DNA of 64,000 bases from Dethiobacter sp. (GTDB lineage Bacteria; Bacillota; Dethiobacteria; Dethiobacterales; Dethiobacteraceae). Shown here one piece after another: positions 27,975-38,717 of this stretch (position 1 is the first letter of the stretch; each line of letters opens with the position of its first letter). Position numbers and translations under genes: made by a program. Where the stretch lies: positions 1 to 64,000 of the forward strand of contig DYEY01000002.1 in NCBI GenBank assembly GCA_020725465.1, read 5' to 3'. The notes under the pieces were generated by a model. That model saw nothing but the letters and a program-made list of their open reading frames with translations. It made no database searches and was not told the DNA's origin.

Positions 27975-28238
27975 TTAACTATCGCTCAATGCATCAGCTA
28001 ACTCTGCTAAAACATCCCCGTGACAAGCTTTTGGCTTGCACCAACAACCAAGCACCTGGCCTTTTAGCTCTGGTAACGCTGCAAGTAATTCTGGTTGTGT
28101 CATAATCCAGCGGTGGTACTTTTCGATAACCTGTTCTCGTGTTCCGTCTCGGCCTATTGTAAAAGGGTTTCCCCATTTACTGGGCCTGCCAATATAGATG
28201 TCGTACTTCTCCCTTTTGCAATGAACAACTTTTGTCAT
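27975..28238 (-). CDS. DUF4326-type protein
   Basis: About 87 residues. Conserved features IGRPSKWGNPF near the N-terminus and LGCWCKPKACHGDVLAEL near the C-terminus are those of the DUF4326 domain, common in phages. Cys and His positions could bind a metal. The start is uncertain: ATG at 28238 overlaps the ADP-ribosylglycohydrolase stop (ATGA), ATG at 28244 lies closer to GAGAGG. Function unknown. Confidence 0.75.
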   Translation of the reverse strand: MTKVVHCKREKYDIYIGRPSKWGNPFTIGRDGTREQVIEKYHRWIMTQPELLAALPELKGQVLGCWCKPKACHGDVLAELADALSDS

Positions 28239-29185
28239 CGGCATTTCGCCTCTCTGTTCTTTACCGCTGAGTCCGCGAGTCTGTCGAGCTGCGTTCTGAT
28301 TGCTGGTGCGAGAGCATCCACCCATCGCTCCGGGATGCTGTTATATCCGTAGATGGCTCCTGCGAGCCCTCCGGTGATGGCCGCTATTGTGTCTGCATCG
28401 CCGCCGAGATTCGCTGCCTTTATAACAGCATCCTCGAATGTTCGGGTAGTGTAAAAGCAACTCAAAGCGCATTTGAAGCTATCGACGACGTATCCCGTTG
28501 GATTTAAAGCGCTGTCCTCATCCTCGGACAAAAGTTCCACTAGGTCATATTCGCTTCCCGCGAGCATCTCGGCTAATGGTTTTGATAAATCTTCATTAAT
28601 AACCGCTTCGGTTATTAAGTGTATCATTGTCGTGTATAAAAAACAAGCCTCTGTTGATTTTTCGTCCCAGTGGGTCATTCTGCCTATATCCACGGCCATG
28701 CGCGCTGCCGTCTCCTTATTGGTGTAATAAAGTCCTGGGTAAACTGTACGCATGAGCGCTCCATTTCCGCCGCTACGTCCTCTATTTGCCTTCGCGGTAT
28801 CTCTGGCCGCCCTGTGCCATTCGTCCTTACTGGTGGCTCCCTGGTGGCTCCTTGAAGCTATTCTTGCTATGCTGCTCCCGCAGGTTCCTCCTATGTCTTT
28901 TGGGCCGCTTTTCATCCATTTTACGAACCGGCGCCCAATAGCAGGGAACGGGTACCCTGGCTTCTCTACGATGCCCTCCGCGACCGCGAGCGTCATTTGG
29001 GTGTCGTCGGTGATTTCGCCTGGCTCAACGTTCAGCCATCCGCCGCCTATCATGTCGGTTACCTGCCCGTGTTGCTCCTTTATCCGATCTGCGCTCATAA
29101 ATTCCAGCGGGGCACCCAGTGCATCCCCGATTGCCACGCCGTATAATGCTCCGGCGATTCTGTTCTTTAGCTCGTCTCTATTCAT
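28235..29185 (-). CDS. ADP-ribosylglycohydrolase family protein (DraG-like)
   Basis: 316-residue protein that would remove ADP-ribose from a modified target (protein or nucleic acid). Family motifs: GVAIGDALGAPLEF, EITDDTQMTLA with acidic metal ligands, GNGALMR, and GGDADTIAAITGGLAGAIYG near the end carrying the second metal-ligand set. The start at 29185 follows GGAGGGAAAAC; a longer frame without a ribosome binding site is rejected. It is an accessory gene at the prophage left end, coupled to DUF4326. A counter-defence or host-modification role is inference. Confidence 0.88.
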   Translation of the reverse strand: MNRDELKNRIAGALYGVAIGDALGAPLEFMSADRIKEQHGQVTDMIGGGWLNVEPGEITDDTQMTLAVAEGIVEKPGYPFPAIGRRFVKWMKSGPKDIGGTCGSSIARIASRSHQGATSKDEWHRAARDTAKANRGRSGGNGALMRTVYPGLYYTNKETAARMAVDIGRMTHWDEKSTEACFLYTTMIHLITEAVINEDLSKPLAEMLAGSEYDLVELLSEDEDSALNPTGYVVDSFKCALSCFYTTRTFEDAVIKAANLGGDADTIAAITGGLAGAIYGYNSIPERWVDALAPAIRTQLDRLADSAVKNREAKCR

Positions 29186-29625
29186 TGTTTTCCCTCCTTC
29201 TTCGCCCGAAGCTCGGCGATCTTGTTTTGCCATTCCTCTGACTGCTCCTGGCGGCGCTGCTTCTCCTCGTCGCTCATCAACTCGTATTCGAGGTCGTTTC
29301 TTGTACGACACACCTCTTTCAATATGGAGCACAATTCGTCCAGTGCTATCTTTTCCTTGGTCGGAAGCTCCGCTTTCTCTTTGGCTCCACGCAAGCGGTC
29401 TATGAGTCGATCTTTTTCCTCCTCGGTTATGAAATCCCAGCCGTATGCGTCCTGTATCTCCTGTTCCGTCTTGTACTCCATGAGTTCCATCTCTCTGGCT
29501 TCCTGCTGCTGATTCTTTTTGCTCACCACCTTGGCGATTTGGTCTCTAAGTCCTACGAGTTTTTTCTCCAGGTAGATGTAAGCGTCAAGCTCCAGCTTTG
29601 TGGCTTTGCGTACCTCCTGATTCAT
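29182..29625 (-). CDS. Hypothetical phage protein, coiled-coil
   Basis: 147-residue acidic/basic, mostly helical protein with long heptad-like stretches and many Glu, Lys and Arg. Start chosen at 29625 (MNQEV), 8 nt after GAGGAGG. The stop overlaps the next start by 4 nt. No domain recognised. Part of the left-end block of small genes read from the promoter near 31471. Confidence 0.65.
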   Translation of the reverse strand: MNQEVRKATKLELDAYIYLEKKLVGLRDQIAKVVSKKNQQQEAREMELMEYKTEQEIQDAYGWDFITEEEKDRLIDRLRGAKEKAELPTKEKIALDELCSILKEVCRTRNDLEYELMSDEEKQRRQEQSEEWQNKIAELRAKKEGKQ

Positions 29626-29639
29626 TTCACTGCCTCCTC

Positions 29640-29852
29640 TCAAAAATTCAGGCTTTCGTTCCCGTGTTCCTTCTGGTACCGATACCAGTTCAGCATGGTT
29701 ATGAAGTCGCCGGGGCTTATTATGGTCGAGCTTCTCTCCTCTCGCTTACCGTCCTTCTCCGGCTCGTATACCGCGACGTAAACCGGCCCGTCGTCCCTCG
29801 CCTGGAACACTTCCATTGTGCCGTTGTTGTTGACGTTGAATTTCATCTTCAT
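29640..29852 (-). CDS. Small hypothetical phage protein
   Basis: 70 residues, beginning MKMKFNVNNNGTMEVF and ending near YRYQKEHGNESLNF. Predicted strand-rich N-terminus and a helical C-terminus. Not recognised. Located in the same tightly packed series of small genes. Confidence 0.6.
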   Translation of the reverse strand: MKMKFNVNNNGTMEVFQARDDGPVYVAVYEPEKDGKREERSSTIISPGDFITMLNWYRYQKEHGNESLNF

Positions 29853-29864
29853 GGCTACTCCCCC

Positions 29865-30017
29865 TCAAAAATTGCGATAGGTCTGCTCTGCCTCTTCCTC
29901 GGTGTGGAAGTCCATCTGTTCGTTCATGAGGGCTTCCAGCACCTTGATGATATCGTGGTCGAGCCCGGCCTGTTTGGCCGCTCTTATCATGTATCCGATT
30001 GCTGCTGCGTTAGTCAT
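29865..30017 (-). CDS. Small hypothetical phage protein (50 residues)
   Basis: Found by reading the minus strand between its neighbours: ATG at 30017, stop TGA at 29867-29865, product MTNAAAIGYMIRAAKQAGLD... ending TYRNF. Helical and acidic towards the C-terminus, with repeated EE pairs. An AATAGGTGACA precedes it, a moderate ribosome binding site. It fills the gap between 29852 and 30033 in the same orientation. Confidence 0.55.
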   Translation of the reverse strand: MTNAAAIGYMIRAAKQAGLDHDIIKVLEALMNEQMDFHTEEEAEQTYRNF

Positions 30018-30032
30018 TGTCACCTATTCCTC

Positions 30033-30353
30033 CTATCTCTTGTAAACGGTATAGACCATTTCATCCGTCCCTGTAGTTCTCCTCTCATACTCTTCGGCAG
30101 TCATTGGGATTATACCAAGCTGGGCGCTCTTGATGCTGCCGTCTTGGTTGTAGCTCTTTGTGGCATAAACCACACGGTCAGCGCCGGTTTCTTGCTGCAC
30201 CCTGATAGCCTCTTTATTGAACTGCTTTTTTGCTTCTTCGAATTCGGTCATTGTCAAATGTCTGCACATTGGACTGTCGGGGAATCGAACCCATATCATT
30301 CGGCCATGCGCAAGGTCTTCCTGGTGCCGTTCATCAATGCTTTTCATGGTCAC
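30033..30353 (-). CDS. Hypothetical phage protein
   Basis: 106 residues; GAGGAGTGACC ribosome binding site ahead of ATG. Contains MIWVRFPDSPMCRHLTMTEFEEAKKQF, then a strand-rich segment. Not recognised as a known family. It follows a structured intergenic region. Confidence 0.6.
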   Translation of the reverse strand: MTMKSIDERHQEDLAHGRMIWVRFPDSPMCRHLTMTEFEEAKKQFNKEAIRVQQETGADRVVYATKSYNQDGSIKSAQLGIIPMTAEEYERRTTGTDEMVYTVYKR

Positions 30354-30400
30354 TCCTCCTCGTTCTTGGTTTATCTACTTGGTTATCAAAGAACAATTTA

Positions 30401-30492
30401 TATAAAAGGGGCGCCATCTTCCCCCCTCTGGCGGCGGGTTCCCGCGACCATCCCGGCATATGCCGGTAGGTTTCGGCCTGGCCCCTCCAGGC
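30401..30492 (-). other. Hairpin-dense intergenic segment with terminator-like end
   Basis: Within 92 bp, read on the minus strand: GCCTGG-N5-CCAGGC (30492-30476), the perfect palindrome CCGGCATATGCCGG (30466-30453), GCGGG-N2-CCCGC (30445-30434), then GGGG-N11-CCCC followed by TTTTATAT (to 30401). It could be an attenuator or a small structured RNA between two phage genes. Confidence 0.45.
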
Positions 30493-30498
30493 TCTCAT

Positions 30499-30741
30499 TC
30501 AGGCGGGGAGTTGTATATATTCTCCAGTGTCAAAGTCGAACTCAAAAACTCCTTCTAAGACTTCAATCGGGCCGCCATATGCATTACCGAGATTTCCTTC
30601 TACTATTTGAGCCTTGCAAACTTCAATCGTGGCAAGTTTCAATCCGTCAGTTCTGATGCCTTCCTCTGCTGCTTCGGCTGCGGAGATTGTTCCGCCGTCA
30701 TAAGATTCCAGGGAGTAAACCTTTGTTGCGTCAATTGACAT
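30499..30741 (-). CDS. Small hypothetical phage protein
   Basis: 80 residues, very acidic (pattern AAEAAEEGIRTD and EVLEGVFEFDFDTGEY). The first 20 residues could form a strand-turn-helix. Not recognised. Acidic small phage proteins are sometimes DNA mimics or inhibitors, but nothing specific supports that here. Confidence 0.6.
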   Translation of the reverse strand: MSIDATKVYSLESYDGGTISAAEAAEEGIRTDGLKLATIEVCKAQIVEGNLGNAYGGPIEVLEGVFEFDFDTGEYIQLPA

Positions 30742-30836
30742 TTCGTATGACCATCCTTTCCTGTGTTTTGCCTGCTCCTGGTTGGTTATCCACCCGCGCC
30801 GCGTGGAGGCGGCAGGCTATGCGGGCACCGGCGGCC

Positions 30837-31247
30837 TTATCCTGCCGCCGTCATGTAATCGTAAAGTTTGGCTTTCAGTATGGTAATCTCCAGCTTGGCC
30901 GCCTTCAGTTTTTCCTTCAGGTCGTCTATCTCGTATGCGTACTTTTGGGCTCTTTCGCTGGTCTCTTCCAGGGCTTTTGTGGTGCCCTGATGAGCGCTCC
31001 GTACACCTTCCAACTCCGCCTTGACTGCGGCAAGTTCCTTCTTGGCTCTATTCTCGTTCTCGTCGGCCTTGATGGCCCGGTCGATGTATTCCTGTGTGGT
31101 GATGCCCCAGTCGTTCTCGATGTTCTGTTCGGCCAGCTCGAAAGCTCCGGCGAAGGCTGCGGCCAGGTAGCTGTTTTCGCCGAGTTCGGCGACCATCTGC
31201 TTGATTTTCTCCAAAGTCTTGCGTTCCTGTTCCTTCGTGGCTATCAT
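30837..31247 (-). CDS. Hypothetical phage coiled-coil protein
   Basis: 136 residues, almost wholly helical; the second half (about 65-130) is a long coiled coil with regular leucines (LKEKLKAAKLEITILKAKL). Translationally coupled to the upstream gene by a 4-nt overlap. No catalytic motif seen. Confidence 0.6.
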   Translation of the reverse strand: MIATKEQERKTLEKIKQMVAELGENSYLAAAFAGAFELAEQNIENDWGITTQEYIDRAIKADENENRAKKELAAVKAELEGVRSAHQGTTKALEETSERAQKYAYEIDDLKEKLKAAKLEITILKAKLYDYMTAAG

Positions 31248-31438
31248 TGCTGTGCCTCCTTCTTGGCTATCCAGTTTTCCTTCGCTTGCCTGCAGGCTTC
31301 CAGGGTGGGTTTAACGCAGGAGAACAATTCTCCATCTGTGTGCCGGTAGTCGTATTGAACTGCCGTCTTCCTGGTGATGTTGCTCTTGAAGGTTTCATAC
31401 TGCTCTTGGCCGTTGGCCAGGTTTCTTGGATTTAACAT
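31244..31438 (-). CDS. Small hypothetical phage protein, first gene of the left block
   Basis: 64 residues starting MLNPRNLANGQEQYETFKSN. ATG at 31438 is 7 nt after AGGAGG; an upstream TTG in the same frame lies in the 5' leader palindrome and is rejected. It follows a strong promoter and is coupled to the coiled-coil gene. Confidence 0.6.
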   Translation of the reverse strand: MLNPRNLANGQEQYETFKSNITRKTAVQYDYRHTDGELFSCVKPTLEACRQAKENWIAKKEAQQ

Positions 31439-34109: not shown

Positions 34110-37010
34110 TTAGTCAAATGCAATGCCAACGCCCAGCACCTCAATGGTGCCCAACGTGTCATTGGCCCATATTGTAACGCGGATATCTAAGCCCCATTTA
34201 TTCGCTGACTTGTTTTTGTTTGTTAATTCGGCATATTTACGCGCCAAGTATGCAGCTGTGATATCCTCCCAAACAGGGAATGGGTCAAAAGCGTTGTTGC
34301 TGGCCTCAACTTTGAGAACGGCTGGGTTTGCCCCATCTTTAGCGATAGTGTGGTAACCAAAAACTAACACCCGTTCAACTTCCGCCGTGGTCTCAATTGG
34401 TGTCTTGAGCCGTAACTGTAGCACGTTACCCGCTCTGATAGTTCGTGGTAACGTCCACTCGCCGTAGTTCCCTGTTGTATCACGGGCAGCCATGCGCCAA
34501 TAATAACTTTGGTTCTGCTGCAATGGCTCACGCAGCAAATGTCGCACTCTTTCTGTTCCTGCTGGGGTTCCTACGGTCGGCATAGGCATCCAGTTAGCAC
34601 CATCGTATATTTCCCATCCTGCGATAGCGTCTGCAGTTCCAGCGCCATATTGCTGTCCAGGTATAAACTCAGCTGGTAGAAACTCGCCTTTAACCAGCAT
34701 AAAAGCATCGCAGTGGAAGGTTGCGCCAATTACAGATGAAGTTAATACTGCTAAACGCAATTTCGCGCAGTCCTGGCCTGTGCGAGCAAACACGGATAAG
34801 GTCTGCCAAGAGGTTCCGTCCAAGGTAATCGGGTCACTGCCGGTGGACCGCAAATAGTTGCCGTTGCTGTCCAGTTCCTCGATTGCCAGGCGAATATATC
34901 CGGCACCTTTTACCTTTACTTGAGCCGCATAACTCTTCCCACCTAATACGTCTACCGGGCTTAATTCCACACCTTCATTGGCGGTTGTCCCAGATGTGGT
35001 CACCTGTAGGCTGGCAGCTCCTTCGTAGAACTGGGCGGTGGATCTGGCGATAGTTGCCCCTCTGCCGGCAAAACCTGTCGTGTCAGCTTCCACACCGGCC
35101 TGATTTGCCGTCAACAGGTTTTTGGTGCTGGTTTCCAGGTCAGCAACGATGTTGGCAAAGTTTACGTCCCTGGCAATCTGCAGCCTAAAGTGCTGGGGAT
35201 CGCCTTCAGGGTCGGTGCCCACGCCCGCCATAAATACCGGTTGTAGCGGCACCCTGGCAGTATGGACTGGCGCAATTGCCGACATTGCACTCGGGCTCAG
35301 ATTGTGGGCGATGGTAAAGATACCGCTAACCGCGAAAGGGCCGTCCACCTTCCCGTCGTTAGCCTTGACATAGATGCGGTAGTTTGTCCCCTCCGGCACC
35401 ACAGTTGTATCCCAGGCCAGCATTAAAGCCGTTACACCGGTGGCAACGGGAAGCAGTGTCGCTCCTTCATCCGCCGAGTAAAAGACGGAATAAGTCAGGG
35501 TATCCCCGTCCGGGTCGGTAGCCTCTGTCCACTCGATAGTCACATTGCCGACCACCGTAGAACCAGCTATCGGCGAAACGATGGCTCCAGGTGCGCTTGG
35601 AACGGCATTTACCTTTGTGAATGTATATGTCCTGGTGCTTTTGTTGCCGAAGCTATCCGTAGCCTCGATGGTTATGGTGTGCATCTGGTTGAGCGCCAGA
35701 TTGCCCCATGTCGTGAGGTCAATAATAAATTCTAAATCAGTATTTTGCGGCGCTCCGGTTAAAGTCTCTACCACGTTTCCGTTAATCTTTTCCACTACAT
35801 CTACCGCGTCCCCATCGGGGTCAGACACCTGGTATACAATGCTGAATGGCCCGCTCTTATCTCCTAAGTTCTGGTCTGATCCAGAAATCAGAGGAGCAGA
35901 ATTCAGATTTACAAAGCAGGCGCGAAAACCGTAGTTGGTGCCGGCGCCGCCATACGCGTTGCTGAAGTCAGCAAGCCCGGCGTCGCCGTTGCTATAGCCG
36001 CCACCCCGGACGAAAACAGGGCCGCTCGAGTACGGAAAGAGCGAGCCCGCAGCGCTTCCAGCCCAGTTCAGCCAGCTAGTTGTTCCGGAGTAAGAGGTGG
36101 ACGTTTCGTTTAGCAGCATACCATCAGAAAGCCCCGCCGCCGCTGTATAGTTGGCAGACTGAGTATCGCCTGACCCCATGGGGAATACATCCTTATACTT
36201 GGCGTCTGCATTGACAAGTGACTGGCAGTAGGTGGTCAGGTTACTATTCCCGTTGTTGACATAGGAAGCCACATATTGCCAGCCGCAGCCGACCATGTCA
36301 AATACACCGGTGGGATTACCGGTGGTTGATGTCTCGCCGGAAGTGTCTAGTGAACCAGTGGCATTCACGGTTCCATTGGTGGTATATCCGGTATGGTATC
36401 CGCTATCGCCATTAATCTTTGGGCGGCCCTGCCCTACTGCATAAGCCAAAAGTGCAATGGCCCCCCATTCGGAATTCTTTAACATGTGGCTGTCTAAGCC
36501 TGTGGCTATAGTAGCCACATTGTTCTTAAGACTCAGGCACTGATTGTGGATGTCATTTACCGCTATGCTTCGCCACGACACCTTATCCGGCAAAGAACCA
36601 GGAATGCCACCATTGGCAACATCACTATATGCTTGGTATTTCATCACCCAGATACCCGGCAGCTCGACAGTTCCAAATTTGAACCCTGGATGCTTTTTGC
36701 ATACCCGGCTGTCTATGGAAGTGGTATCGTCTGTAGTGCCGCTGCTAAAACGGATTTTTACCTCTGGGTCGTCGGCAAACTGTATAGCCCGATAGGTAAA
36801 CCGGGGAATCCATACCCAAAGATTGCCTTTGGTATCCTTGGCGTTAGCCCAACGTTTAGGGGCTATGCCATTAACGGTGTTGATCGGGTCATAATTATAT
36901 TGCCATCCGGCCAAGGTGGTGTTTTGGAACGTCTGGCCGGACACGTGGTTAACCGGAGTCCATCCGGCTGGCAGCACTGGCGCATTTGCTACTCCTGAAA
37001 CTAAAGCCAT
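34110..37010 (-). CDS. Diversity-generating retroelement target: tail-fibre protein with C-type-lectin/FGE-like domain
   Basis: 966-residue receptor-binding candidate. Residues about 40-370 resemble the formylglycine-generating-enzyme/C-type lectin fold used by retroelement targets (WVWIPRFTYRAI, HMLKNSEWGAIALLAYAV, GVFDMVGCGWQYVAS). They end in the variable segment (residues about 319-366) closing with the family signature NYGFRACF. After it come Ig/FnIII-like modules (about 375-590; SDPDGD and TDPDGD motifs), a beta-sandwich resembling a carbohydrate-binding module (about 630-760), and another sandwich to the end. AAGGAGGG ribosome binding site. The variable region is internal rather than C-terminal, which is unusual. 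Confidence 0.92.
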   Translation of the reverse strand: MALVSGVANAPVLPAGWTPVNHVSGQTFQNTTLAGWQYNYDPINTVNGIAPKRWANAKDTKGNLWVWIPRFTYRAIQFADDPEVKIRFSSGTTDDTTSIDSRVCKKHPGFKFGTVELPGIWVMKYQAYSDVANGGIPGSLPDKVSWRSIAVNDIHNQCLSLKNNVATIATGLDSHMLKNSEWGAIALLAYAVGQGRPKINGDSGYHTGYTTNGTVNATGSLDTSGETSTTGNPTGVFDMVGCGWQYVASYVNNGNSNLTTYCQSLVNADAKYKDVFPMGSGDTQSANYTAAAGLSDGMLLNETSTSYSGTTSWLNWAGSAAGSLFPYSSGPVFVRGGGYSNGDAGLADFSNAYGGAGTNYGFRACFVNLNSAPLISGSDQNLGDKSGPFSIVYQVSDPDGDAVDVVEKINGNVVETLTGAPQNTDLEFIIDLTTWGNLALNQMHTITIEATDSFGNKSTRTYTFTKVNAVPSAPGAIVSPIAGSTVVGNVTIEWTEATDPDGDTLTYSVFYSADEGATLLPVATGVTALMLAWDTTVVPEGTNYRIYVKANDGKVDGPFAVSGIFTIAHNLSPSAMSAIAPVHTARVPLQPVFMAGVGTDPEGDPQHFRLQIARDVNFANIVADLETSTKNLLTANQAGVEADTTGFAGRGATIARSTAQFYEGAASLQVTTSGTTANEGVELSPVDVLGGKSYAAQVKVKGAGYIRLAIEELDSNGNYLRSTGSDPITLDGTSWQTLSVFARTGQDCAKLRLAVLTSSVIGATFHCDAFMLVKGEFLPAEFIPGQQYGAGTADAIAGWEIYDGANWMPMPTVGTPAGTERVRHLLREPLQQNQSYYWRMAARDTTGNYGEWTLPRTIRAGNVLQLRLKTPIETTAEVERVLVFGYHTIAKDGANPAVLKVEASNNAFDPFPVWEDITAAYLARKYAELTNKNKSANKWGLDIRVTIWANDTLGTIEVLGVGIAFD
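35869..35892. other. Hairpin just downstream of the variable repeat
   Basis: TTCTGG-TCTGAT-CCAGAA-ATCAGA contains two overlapping perfect 6-bp inverted repeats: TTCTGG/CCAGAA (35869-35886) and TCTGAT/ATCAGA (35875-35892). It starts 22 bp past the end of the variable repeat in the coding direction. Retrohoming in phage BPP-1 needs a stem-loop in this place, so this is a candidate equivalent. Confidence 0.5.
35915..36054 (-). repeat. DGR variable repeat (VR)
   Basis: 140-bp block in the tail-fibre gene aligning without gaps to the template repeat at 37181-37320. By hand I count 20 mismatches; 19 are at template adenines (coding strand) and one is T to G (TAC to GAC). The constant 3' part codes for GFRACF and would serve as initiation of mutagenic homing. 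Template Asn (AAC) codons have become Gly, Ser, Asp, Ala, Tyr or Thr. Confidence 0.97.
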
Positions 37011-37180
37011 TATTATCCCTCCTTATTTGCTTAAATAATGAGAGAAGGACATCGTTCAACTTGTTACTAGATGCCCTTCTCGGCTTGTGTTTTTACCCTG
37101 AAAGGGAAGGAATAGGGCTCCTTTGGTCTGGTGGCTCTGTGTAAAGGTTCGTAAACCTCTACAATCACGCTAATAACCAG
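37011..37180 (-). other. Spacer between template repeat and target gene, with stem-loop
   Basis: No gene. On the minus strand this follows the template repeat. It contains an imperfect stem-loop AGAAGG..CATC / GATG..CCTTCT (about 37043-37081) and a small CCCT/AGGG hairpin near 37097-37107. In BPP-1 the RNA just 3' of the template repeat primes and positions cDNA synthesis, so this could be the equivalent spacer RNA. It also holds the ribosome binding site of the target gene. Confidence 0.5.
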
Positions 37181-37320
37181 AGCAGGCGCGAAAACCGTTG
37201 TTGGTGTTGGCGTTGCCATTCGTGTTGTTGAAGTAAGCAAGCCCGGCGTTGCTGTTGCTATAGTTGCCACCCCGGACGAAAACAGGGTTGCTCGAGTACG
37301 GAAAGTTCGAGTTCGCAGCT
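37181..37320 (-). repeat. DGR template repeat (TR)
   Basis: Non-coding donor copy of the variable repeat, between the reverse transcriptase gene and the target gene. On the minus strand it is rich in AAC codons (13 Asn codons when read in the target frame), the typical design that lets adenine mutation reach many residues without making stops. I count 35 adenines in 140 nt, 19 of which differ in the current variable repeat. A short minus-strand frame crossing it is not a gene. Confidence 0.97.
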
Positions 37321-37342
37321 GCAGCCTTATCCCTAAATTCTT

Positions 37343-38362
37343 CTATTTTGTGAAGGTGAACTGGTTAAGTATCTTATGGATTAGCCAGTAGCTGTCTGCA
37401 TGCCTGGCATATCCCATCCAGCTCACCAAAACCCGCCTTATGTCTTCGGCATCCATCTCACCTGCCTTATATTTTTCCTGAAACTTTCGCAGCTTCCGCT
37501 TGATGCGACGCTTACTTTCCGTCCGTATCTTCATATGAGTGGGCCAGATCTTGTAACCACAAAAATTAACCCCGTTTTTAGCGGGGAATACCTGTGACTT
37601 GTGATTAAGTTCCAGCCTTAACTCACTCTTCAGGAAGGCCCTAATTTCATCAAAAACATGCTTTGCAGTTGCCTTGTCTGGCAAGACCATCACAAAGTCG
37701 TCCATATATCGAACGTACATTTTCACCAGTAGCTGGTGTTTCACGAACATATCTAGCTGGTGCAAATATACATTCGCAAACCACTGCGAAGTGTAGGAAC
37801 CAACCGGGATTCCTGGGTTTTCAGTGCTATCCAGGATTACTTTAGTAAGCCATAGCACTTTATGGTCTGTTATCTTCCGAGCGATGATGTTGTAGAGAAT
37901 ATCGTGGTCAATGCTGAAAAAGTAACTCTTAATGTCGCCCTTCAGTATATATGGTTCATCCCATATCCGATTGGTTCGCTTCAAATACTCCTGGACTCGA
38001 TAGGCAGCCCGGTGCATGCCTTTGCCTTCCAAACAAGCATAAGAATCAAAGATGAAAGTTGGGCCGAATACTGGTTTGATGAAGTTCCCTACATACCACT
38101 GGTGTACCACCCGGTCACGGTATGGTGCTGCCTTAATCAGCCGCTGCTTTGGCTCATATATGGTAAATTCCCGATATTCCCCTGGCCGATATGTTCCTGC
38201 CCTCAATTCCCGGGCCAGAGTCAGCAAGTTGCCTTCCAAATCCATCTCAAACTGAATAACTTCGGCAGTAAACCGCTTGCCTTTCCTGCCCTTGTGGTGC
38301 GCCGCCAAGAACGATGAAAATGTTAAAGCTGGCTCAAATAGATTTTTATATGTCTTGGCCAA
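37343..38362 (-). CDS. DGR reverse transcriptase
   Basis: 339-residue reverse transcriptase. Catalytic YMDD at 219-222 in YVRYMDDFVMVL; the retroelement-type motif 4 VGSYTSQ at 187-193 (retroelement enzymes have SQ where group II intron enzymes have QGxxxSP). No maturase, X or endonuclease domain follows, so it is not a group II intron enzyme. It would copy template-repeat RNA with adenine-specific errors. Its start overlaps the avd stop by 17 nt. Gene order avd, rt, template, target differs from the BPP-1 order. Confidence 0.96.
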   Translation of the reverse strand: MAKTYKNLFEPALTFSSFLAAHHKGRKGKRFTAEVIQFEMDLEGNLLTLARELRAGTYRPGEYREFTIYEPKQRLIKAAPYRDRVVHQWYVGNFIKPVFGPTFIFDSYACLEGKGMHRAAYRVQEYLKRTNRIWDEPYILKGDIKSYFFSIDHDILYNIIARKITDHKVLWLTKVILDSTENPGIPVGSYTSQWFANVYLHQLDMFVKHQLLVKMYVRYMDDFVMVLPDKATAKHVFDEIRAFLKSELRLELNHKSQVFPAKNGVNFCGYKIWPTHMKIRTESKRRIKRKLRKFQEKYKAGEMDAEDIRRVLVSWMGYARHADSYWLIHKILNQFTFTK

Positions 38363-38717
38363 CGGTGGACTTTATCCAGCCGCCGAGAATGCGGCCGATT
38401 TCATCGAGGCGACGCGACCACTCCATATAGTTCTGGTTTGAAATGTATCGGTTTTTATGAGCCATGCGAACCAATACCTTCTGAAGCTGTATCTCTGCAT
38501 CAATGGCATTAAGCATGTCGACCCGCACCTGCCGGTTGTTATATACCTTGTTAGCCCGTAGGATGTACTTAAGGACGGTATACATGCTGTCTTTGATATG
38601 TGCCGCCATGACAAATCTTTCAGACTTGGGGAATTTCCGTAGCAGGTTGTACGCATACTCGATGAGGTCGACATATTTTTGATAAATTAGCAGGTCTTGC
38701 TGCTTTGTCTGTGGCAA
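38346..38717 (-). CDS. avd: DGR accessory variability determinant (Avd-like four-helix bundle)
   Basis: 123-residue, basic, all-helical protein of the Avd/S23 rRNA-intervening-protein family. Seen: YQKYVDLIEYAYNLLRKFPKSERF at the N-terminus, KDSMYTVLKYILRANKVYN, and MEWSRRLDEIGRILGGWIKS at the end, typical of these bundles. Avd forms a pentameric barrel that binds the reverse transcriptase and template RNA. Directly upstream of and overlapping the reverse transcriptase gene. Confidence 0.92.
   Translation of the reverse strand: MPQTKQQDLLIYQKYVDLIEYAYNLLRKFPKSERFVMAAHIKDSMYTVLKYILRANKVYNNRQVRVDMLNAIDAEIQLQKVLVRMAHKNRYISNQNYMEWSRRLDEIGRILGGWIKSTVGQDI

Follow-up and report, generated by a model that had tools for sequence, protein, structure and literature searches.

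A diversity-generating retroelement with an internal variable repeat in a long tentaclin-like gene of a Dethiobacter prophage, and a candidate target element within the coding sequence

In the diversity-generating retroelement (DGR) of phage BPP-1, homing depends on a hairpin that closely follows the variable repeat (VR) downstream, and for phage DGRs in general a hairpin or cruciform with a GC-rich stem of 7–10 bp and a GRNA loop has been described as 'nearly always' present (Guo et al. 2011, PMC3240598). The near-universal position of the VR at the C-terminus of the target has been explained by a requirement for cis elements that are non-coding (Roux et al. 2021, PMC8144416). The tentaclins of nd12 and FP_Mushu are the founding members of their class and carry an anchor consensus in their last ~100 residues (PMC10743442); reads from FP_Mushu show more variation at the VR than elsewhere (PMC5883640). 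Here we describe a DGR on the minus strand of a 64,000-nt stretch of Dethiobacter sp. DNA (contig DYEY01000002.1, positions 1 to 64,000; called the window), which consists of the accessory gene avd, a reverse transcriptase (RT) gene, a template repeat (TR) and a 966-aa target gene with the VR in its middle. Taken together, the evidence makes it highly likely that this phage DGR diversifies a long tentaclin, with a target element that is probably part of the coding sequence.

The cassette runs in the order avd, RT, TR and target (Table 1), and the coordinates given for these four parts by the original prediction, which was made from the sequence alone, were all borne out by open reading frame (ORF) calls and a repeat search. 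As the longest direct repeat, this search recovered by program the ungapped pair of TR (37178–37319) and VR (35912–36053), which are 86% identical. Base-by-base realignment of the 140-bp repeats reproduced the earlier count of 20 differences without a gap, 19 of them at TR adenines and the exception being TAC to GAC. We prefer the 138-bp core listed in Table 1 as the frame, in which 18 of 19 differences fall on the 34 template adenines (hypergeometric P = 2.3e-12) and an even spread over the four template bases was not seen, so that the bias can stand as the sign of mutagenic retrohoming it had been taken for. Just past the core, all four TR/VR pairs reaching that position show an identical C/T difference (codon 366, TCT/TTT), which is therefore regarded as a fixed end difference between TR and VR, similar to that of IMH* and IMH (initiation of mutagenic homing), and not as a mutation event. 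The IMH in the VR differs from the IMH* in the TR (TTTCGCGCCTGC TTTG vs TCTG), identically in four loci. A search of the 2.9-Mb genome gave neither a third copy of the TR nor a second VR, and just one copy of the RT.

The VR does not lie at the C-terminus of the target but covers residues 320–365 of 966 and closes an N-terminal domain resembling C-type lectins (C-lec). About 600 residues of Ig-, Fn3- and carbohydrate-binding-like sequence follow it and end in the tentaclin anchor motif. The last ~100 residues are 42% identical to the C-terminus of the Hoc-like protein of FP_Mushu, and the motif KVE..NN.FD..P.WED.T is common to the target, nd12 (nd12_tgt1) and FP_Mushu; the anchor also recurs in Emery gp25. 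The VR is internal in every relative reaching it, and the length of 966 aa recurs in two of them (L011 and L037, introduced below). A profile of the N-terminal domain matches phage DGR targets with a C-terminal VR (hhalign, 98%) and weakly PDB 5vf4, the crystal structure of the C-lec DGR variable protein TaqVP (E 0.0016). It weighs against a C-lec fold that it depends on this weak profile match and on hhalign, and that AlphaFold gave no confident fold, with a predicted local distance difference test (pLDDT) score of 29.5 for the full target and 30.6 for the N-terminal domain. The same profile gave no match to the heads of nd12 and Mushu. A related head domain is present at the C-terminus of a pseudopilin-like target in a Clostridia metagenome-assembled genome (MAG; L015), with the VR at its very end; the same head thus occurs both in a terminal and in an internal position. 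In that locus (L015, 10209–10704) TR and VR are on the strand opposite the RT, and the 596-aa target combines a prepilin-like N-terminus with the C-terminal C-lec domain. Two other loci (L007, 3307–5329, and L008, 3314–5323) have a pair of target genes in tandem; each gene has a VR of its own, and a single TR serves both.

What the diversified protein does on the virion is less clear, as tentaclins have been interpreted as receptor-binding proteins and also as Hoc-like decoration of the capsid. Of the earlier claim of a diversified receptor-binding protein, the diversification holds by the adenine bias in the VR; that the target, being a tentaclin, also binds a receptor may be presumed. Alternatively, it could be a decoration on the capsid or particle, Hoc-like and sticking virions to surfaces, and not a receptor-binding protein of the tail. 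This is a possible reading that we take seriously while not preferring it: residues 367–467 match the PHROG family 'Hoc-like head decoration', the FP_Mushu homologue is annotated as Hoc-like, and a weak match to a carbohydrate-binding domain, just under the cut-off, is present at residues 639–755. On the other hand, the gene directly follows baseplate J and tail I-like genes and is followed by amidase and holin genes, and its Ig-like region (residues 366–478) matches not only the Ig domains of nd12 and Mushu but also a solved tail fiber protein (PDB 31he; E 9.7e-7). Pfam matches to fn3 and cadherin-like domains stayed under the cut-off.

Because the VR lies mid-gene, an element marking the target would have to be inside coding sequence. 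Synonymous changes were scanned by codon comparisons among five genes of the window family (the window phage, L011, L006, L037 and L012). Of 180 comparisons in codons 362–379 only 10 show a synonymous difference, whereas the rate for the whole gene is 44%; this is the lowest 18-codon window and a trough not reached in any of 1000 permutations. Even codons 367–378, which lie wholly past the TR/VR homology, have 4 of 120, below all 632 windows elsewhere. The low-change block covers 53 nt from the 3' end of the VR onwards and closes with TCTGAT-TTCTGG-ATCAGA (6-bp stem, 6-nt loop), the sole conserved inverted repeat with a stem of at least 5 and a loop of 3–8 in 974 codons. In twelve nd12-like genes the sole conserved inverted repeat, TGGTAT-CTG-ATACCA (11 of 12), also stands right after the VR. 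We consider it reasonably probable from these sequence comparisons that the block and its inverted repeat are a retrohoming element written in codons.

Low synonymous variation could also have causes unrelated to retrohoming, such as codon usage at the boundary between domains, recombination in the recent past or a different signal that overlaps the sequence. The window family comprises only about three independent lineages (the window phage with L011, L006 with L037, and L012), the identity between the window phage and L011 continues far beyond the block, and the constraint after the VR is weaker in the nd12-like family (10 of 506 windows as low) and in the Mushu-like family (1 of 502). Yet in lineages that begin to differ directly behind the inverted repeat, the block reaches just as far as this repeat; it extends beyond the TR/VR homology so that copying from the TR cannot homogenise it, and the sole conserved inverted repeats of both the window-family and the nd12 genes are found right after the VR. 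We therefore regard such unrelated causes as doubtful. Speaking against a coding-embedded element itself, the Mushu-like genes have no conserved inverted repeat after the VR, looser settings included, and a GC-rich hairpin of the GRNA type was not found, the stem here being 6 bp and AT-rich and the loop TTCTGG. As the GRNA hairpin has been called 'nearly always' present, we did not take it as defining a DGR; nevertheless our confidence in the function of the element is held at a moderate level because its stem and loop are unlike the GRNA type and because of the small number of independent lineages. With this reservation, DGRs with a mid-gene VR would on balance carry IMH and inverted repeat in coding DNA, kept by selection at synonymous sites, and a C-terminal VR would not be mechanistically required. 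Among the papers available, none was found that reports a VR inside a gene together with a hairpin in coding sequence. The locus makes the cis-element explanation of C-terminal VRs directly testable and is relevant to the engineering of DGRs onto internal sites.

In order to follow the activity of the element we used relatives of the cassette, namely a prophage of Desulfotomaculum copahuensis LMa1 (L011), the IMG/VR contigs L004–L006 and L037, and the MAG contig L012. Differences between TR and VR fall on template adenines in 20 of 20 cases in L006, 14 of 15 in L012, 10 of 10 in L005 and 12 of 12 in L037, for which the TR of the near-identical L005 served as reference. This amounts to 56 of 57 for the four comparisons and to 74 of 76 with the window locus. 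Over 1238 bp, 20 positions distinguish L005 from L037. A 76-nt piece of the VR holds 13 of them, all at template adenines, and the other 7 are spread over ~1162 positions (0.6%). L004 is otherwise 100% identical to L005 but breaks off exactly where the VR begins, and L005 ends inside the VR; this can happen when reads disagree, though repeats alone can break assemblies. The original prediction that the element has been active is thus supported: past retrohoming is clear from the adenine bias, while the recent alleles come from the related contigs and the window phage itself gives past activity only.

That the element is a complete but idle relic, with a VR that formerly underwent rewriting and no longer changes in this prophage, appears improbable to us. 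A relic would fit the single VR state given by this genome, the interrupted RT frame of L012 and the TR/VR pair of L011, where just 10 of 27 differences lie on adenines. TR and VR of that prophage (L011, 9044–9186 and 10315–10456) have drifted apart at 17 non-adenine sites, and its TR has 26 adenines vs 34 in the window TR and resembles the TR of L006 in its 5' half. The lost adenines and this partial likeness make a replacement or drift of the L011 TR probable. In L012 (4–1020) the RT frame has an in-frame stop, from decay or an assembly error, with the adenine bias of its VR still present. Against a relic, the window phage has every part in intact form (RT, Avd, TR, spacer RNA and target), L005 and L037 carry different VR alleles in near-identical sequence, and the break of L004 falls exactly on the VR start.

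Chance or an ordinary repeat as the origin of the TR/VR pair is ruled out by the adenine bias, with TRs compared among themselves, which show no such bias, as the control.

Also the proteins of the cassette are those of a DGR. Avd matches NCBIfam NF033474 with 102 bits (cut-off 80), Pfam bAvd (PF22296; E 3.2e-30) and phrog_3206 (E 7e-38); a sequence search with it against the PDB gave no match. The RT matches phrog_1423 (E 4.9e-132), and its motif VGSYTSQ fits the (I/V/L)GxxxSQ of the DGR clade. Its best solved relative is PDB 8ub7 (E 8.6e-64), which we take to be the BPP-1 brt-Avd-RNA complex, whereas the top-scoring group II intron RT reaches E 1.2e-21. In the RT tree, the DGR RTs including BPP-1 brt and the YxDD RTs of related genomes are on opposite sides of a 100/100 branch. 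A group II intron or retron RT, the outcome that would have spoken against a DGR, is excluded by these scores and by the split in the tree. Avd families, RT homology and RT tree therefore agree with the earlier claim of a complete DGR. A second, unrelated DGR is present in another genome of the same bacterial family (G012; L067, 4224–4527), having a C-terminal VR and an RT with a TSQ motif.

The 142 bases after the TR match the Rfam family RT-14 (RF02921) over its full length with 78.3 bits (covariance model; gathering threshold 48.1). The original prediction had made no mention of structured RNA between TR and target. RT-14 also follows the TR in L011, L006, L012 and L005, and stands directly after it in Bacillus phage BalMu-1; in FP_Mushu an RT-9 RNA follows the TR. 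Among five sequences, 14 of 51 predicted pairs of RT-14 show compensatory changes. In BPP-1 the spacer at the equivalent place recruits the RT-Avd complex and primes the cDNA (PMC12875486), and by analogy RT-14 would be the part of the TR-RNA for RT-Avd binding and priming. The position of RT-14, and of RT-9 in Mushu-like phages, beside a DGR TR suggests a likely role for these RNA families.

As a model, a transcript spanning TR and RT-14 spacer RNA would be bound by RT and Avd, and cDNA would be copied from the TR with random bases at template adenines. This cDNA would replace the VR in the target gene, and up to ~20 residues on the C-lec-like ligand face could be changed. The target would act as a long tentaclin whose variable head is N-terminal, whose stalk is Ig/Fn3/carbohydrate-binding-like and whose C-terminus anchors it to the virion. 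IMH and downstream inverted repeat may mark it for rewriting, being part of the coding sequence and preserved at synonymous sites.

The cassette is surrounded by genes for terminase, portal, major head protein, scaffold, sheath, tube, tape measure, baseplate, endolysin, holin and amidase. Since sheath, tube and baseplate genes (J and P2 I-like) flank it together with the other structural genes, the phage is contractile-tailed, as had been predicted. It also is a prophage as claimed: the phage module adjoins a bacterial purine operon on the left and is integrated, since purine and acyl-CoA genes occupy the left 29 kb of the window. The left phage-host junction falls in the region 27975–31349, with an ADP-ribosylglycohydrolase, DUF4326 and ORFs without family match. 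On the right, the 69-kb contig ends inside the phage, so that the right prophage end and any integrase lie beyond it; neither integrase nor attachment site was seen in the part covered, and no tRNA that could be an attachment site was found in the 64-kb window. In L016 (355–1932) a ParB-like/DNA methyltransferase fusion (phrog_498) adjoins the terminase end of the phage. The host is an environmental Firmicute, which is new among tentaclin carriers.

Table 1: Features of the DGR locus in the window.
Feature	Position	Strand	Description and evidence
avd, accessory variability determinant	38346–38717	-	123 aa, TTG start as annotated; Avd family matches
DGR reverse transcriptase	37343–38362	-	339 aa, YMDD, VGSYTSQ; profile matches, PDB search, tree
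TR core	37182–37319	-	138 bp, 34 adenines; repeat alignment
Structured spacer RNA, 3' of TR	37041–37182	-	Rfam RT-14 (RF02921), covariance model
Target gene, tentaclin-like, 966 aa	34110–37010	-	Open frame; C-terminal anchor
N-terminal C-lec-like domain, residues 1–367, VR at its end	35910–37010	-	Profile match, hhalign
VR core, residues 320–365	35916–36053	-	18/19 differences from TR at template adenines
Candidate coding-embedded target element, IMH end of VR and 38 nt past TR/VR homology	35875–35927	-	Synonymous-change scan, 5 phages
Inverted repeat TCTGAT-TTCTGG-ATCAGA, candidate retrohoming hairpin/cruciform	35875–35892	-	Present in 5/5 sequences
C-terminal anchor domain, residues ~863–966 and stop	34110–34424	-	Motif common with FP_Mushu Hoc-like C-terminus

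In comparison with known systems, the locus shares with BPP-1 avd, RT, adenine-specific TR/VR differences, a structured spacer after the TR, a probable C-lec-type target and the tail context. However, in BPP-1 the VR occupies the 3' end of mtd, and the hairpin is 4 bp past it beside the stop codon, whereas the window VR is mid-gene, and the order mtd-avd-TR-brt contrasts with avd-RT-TR-target. Bacillus phage BalMu-1 likewise has RT-14 RNA directly after the TR, a related RT and, as is probable for the window, a C-lec-type target, but the VR is at the C-terminus of a 319-aa target and the TR is before the RT. The D. copahuensis prophage, the closest prophage relative, carries the same cassette, with 93% identity for the RT and 92% for the 966-aa target, and differs in its adenine-poorer TR, mismatched to its own VR at many non-adenine sites. 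Closest in design are the tentaclins of nd4/nd12 and FP_Mushu/FP_Brigit, which have an N-terminal variable C-lec domain, as is probable for the window target, and likewise an internal VR (PMC10743442, PMC5883640). They have the C-terminal anchor motif and, by the profile matches, probably Ig-like domains in common with the window target, and the genes of the FP_Mushu cassette stand in the same order. A VR inside the gene was thus already known as a trait of tentaclins. The head shows no detectable sequence similarity to those of nd12 or Mushu, and the window TR follows the RT, whereas in nd12 and Mushu it precedes it. New in the target are its size, 966 aa compared to the 313–649 (one 830) reported for phage tentaclins, and its carbohydrate-binding-like insert, which together with Fn3-like sequence forms an extra region over the known tentaclins.

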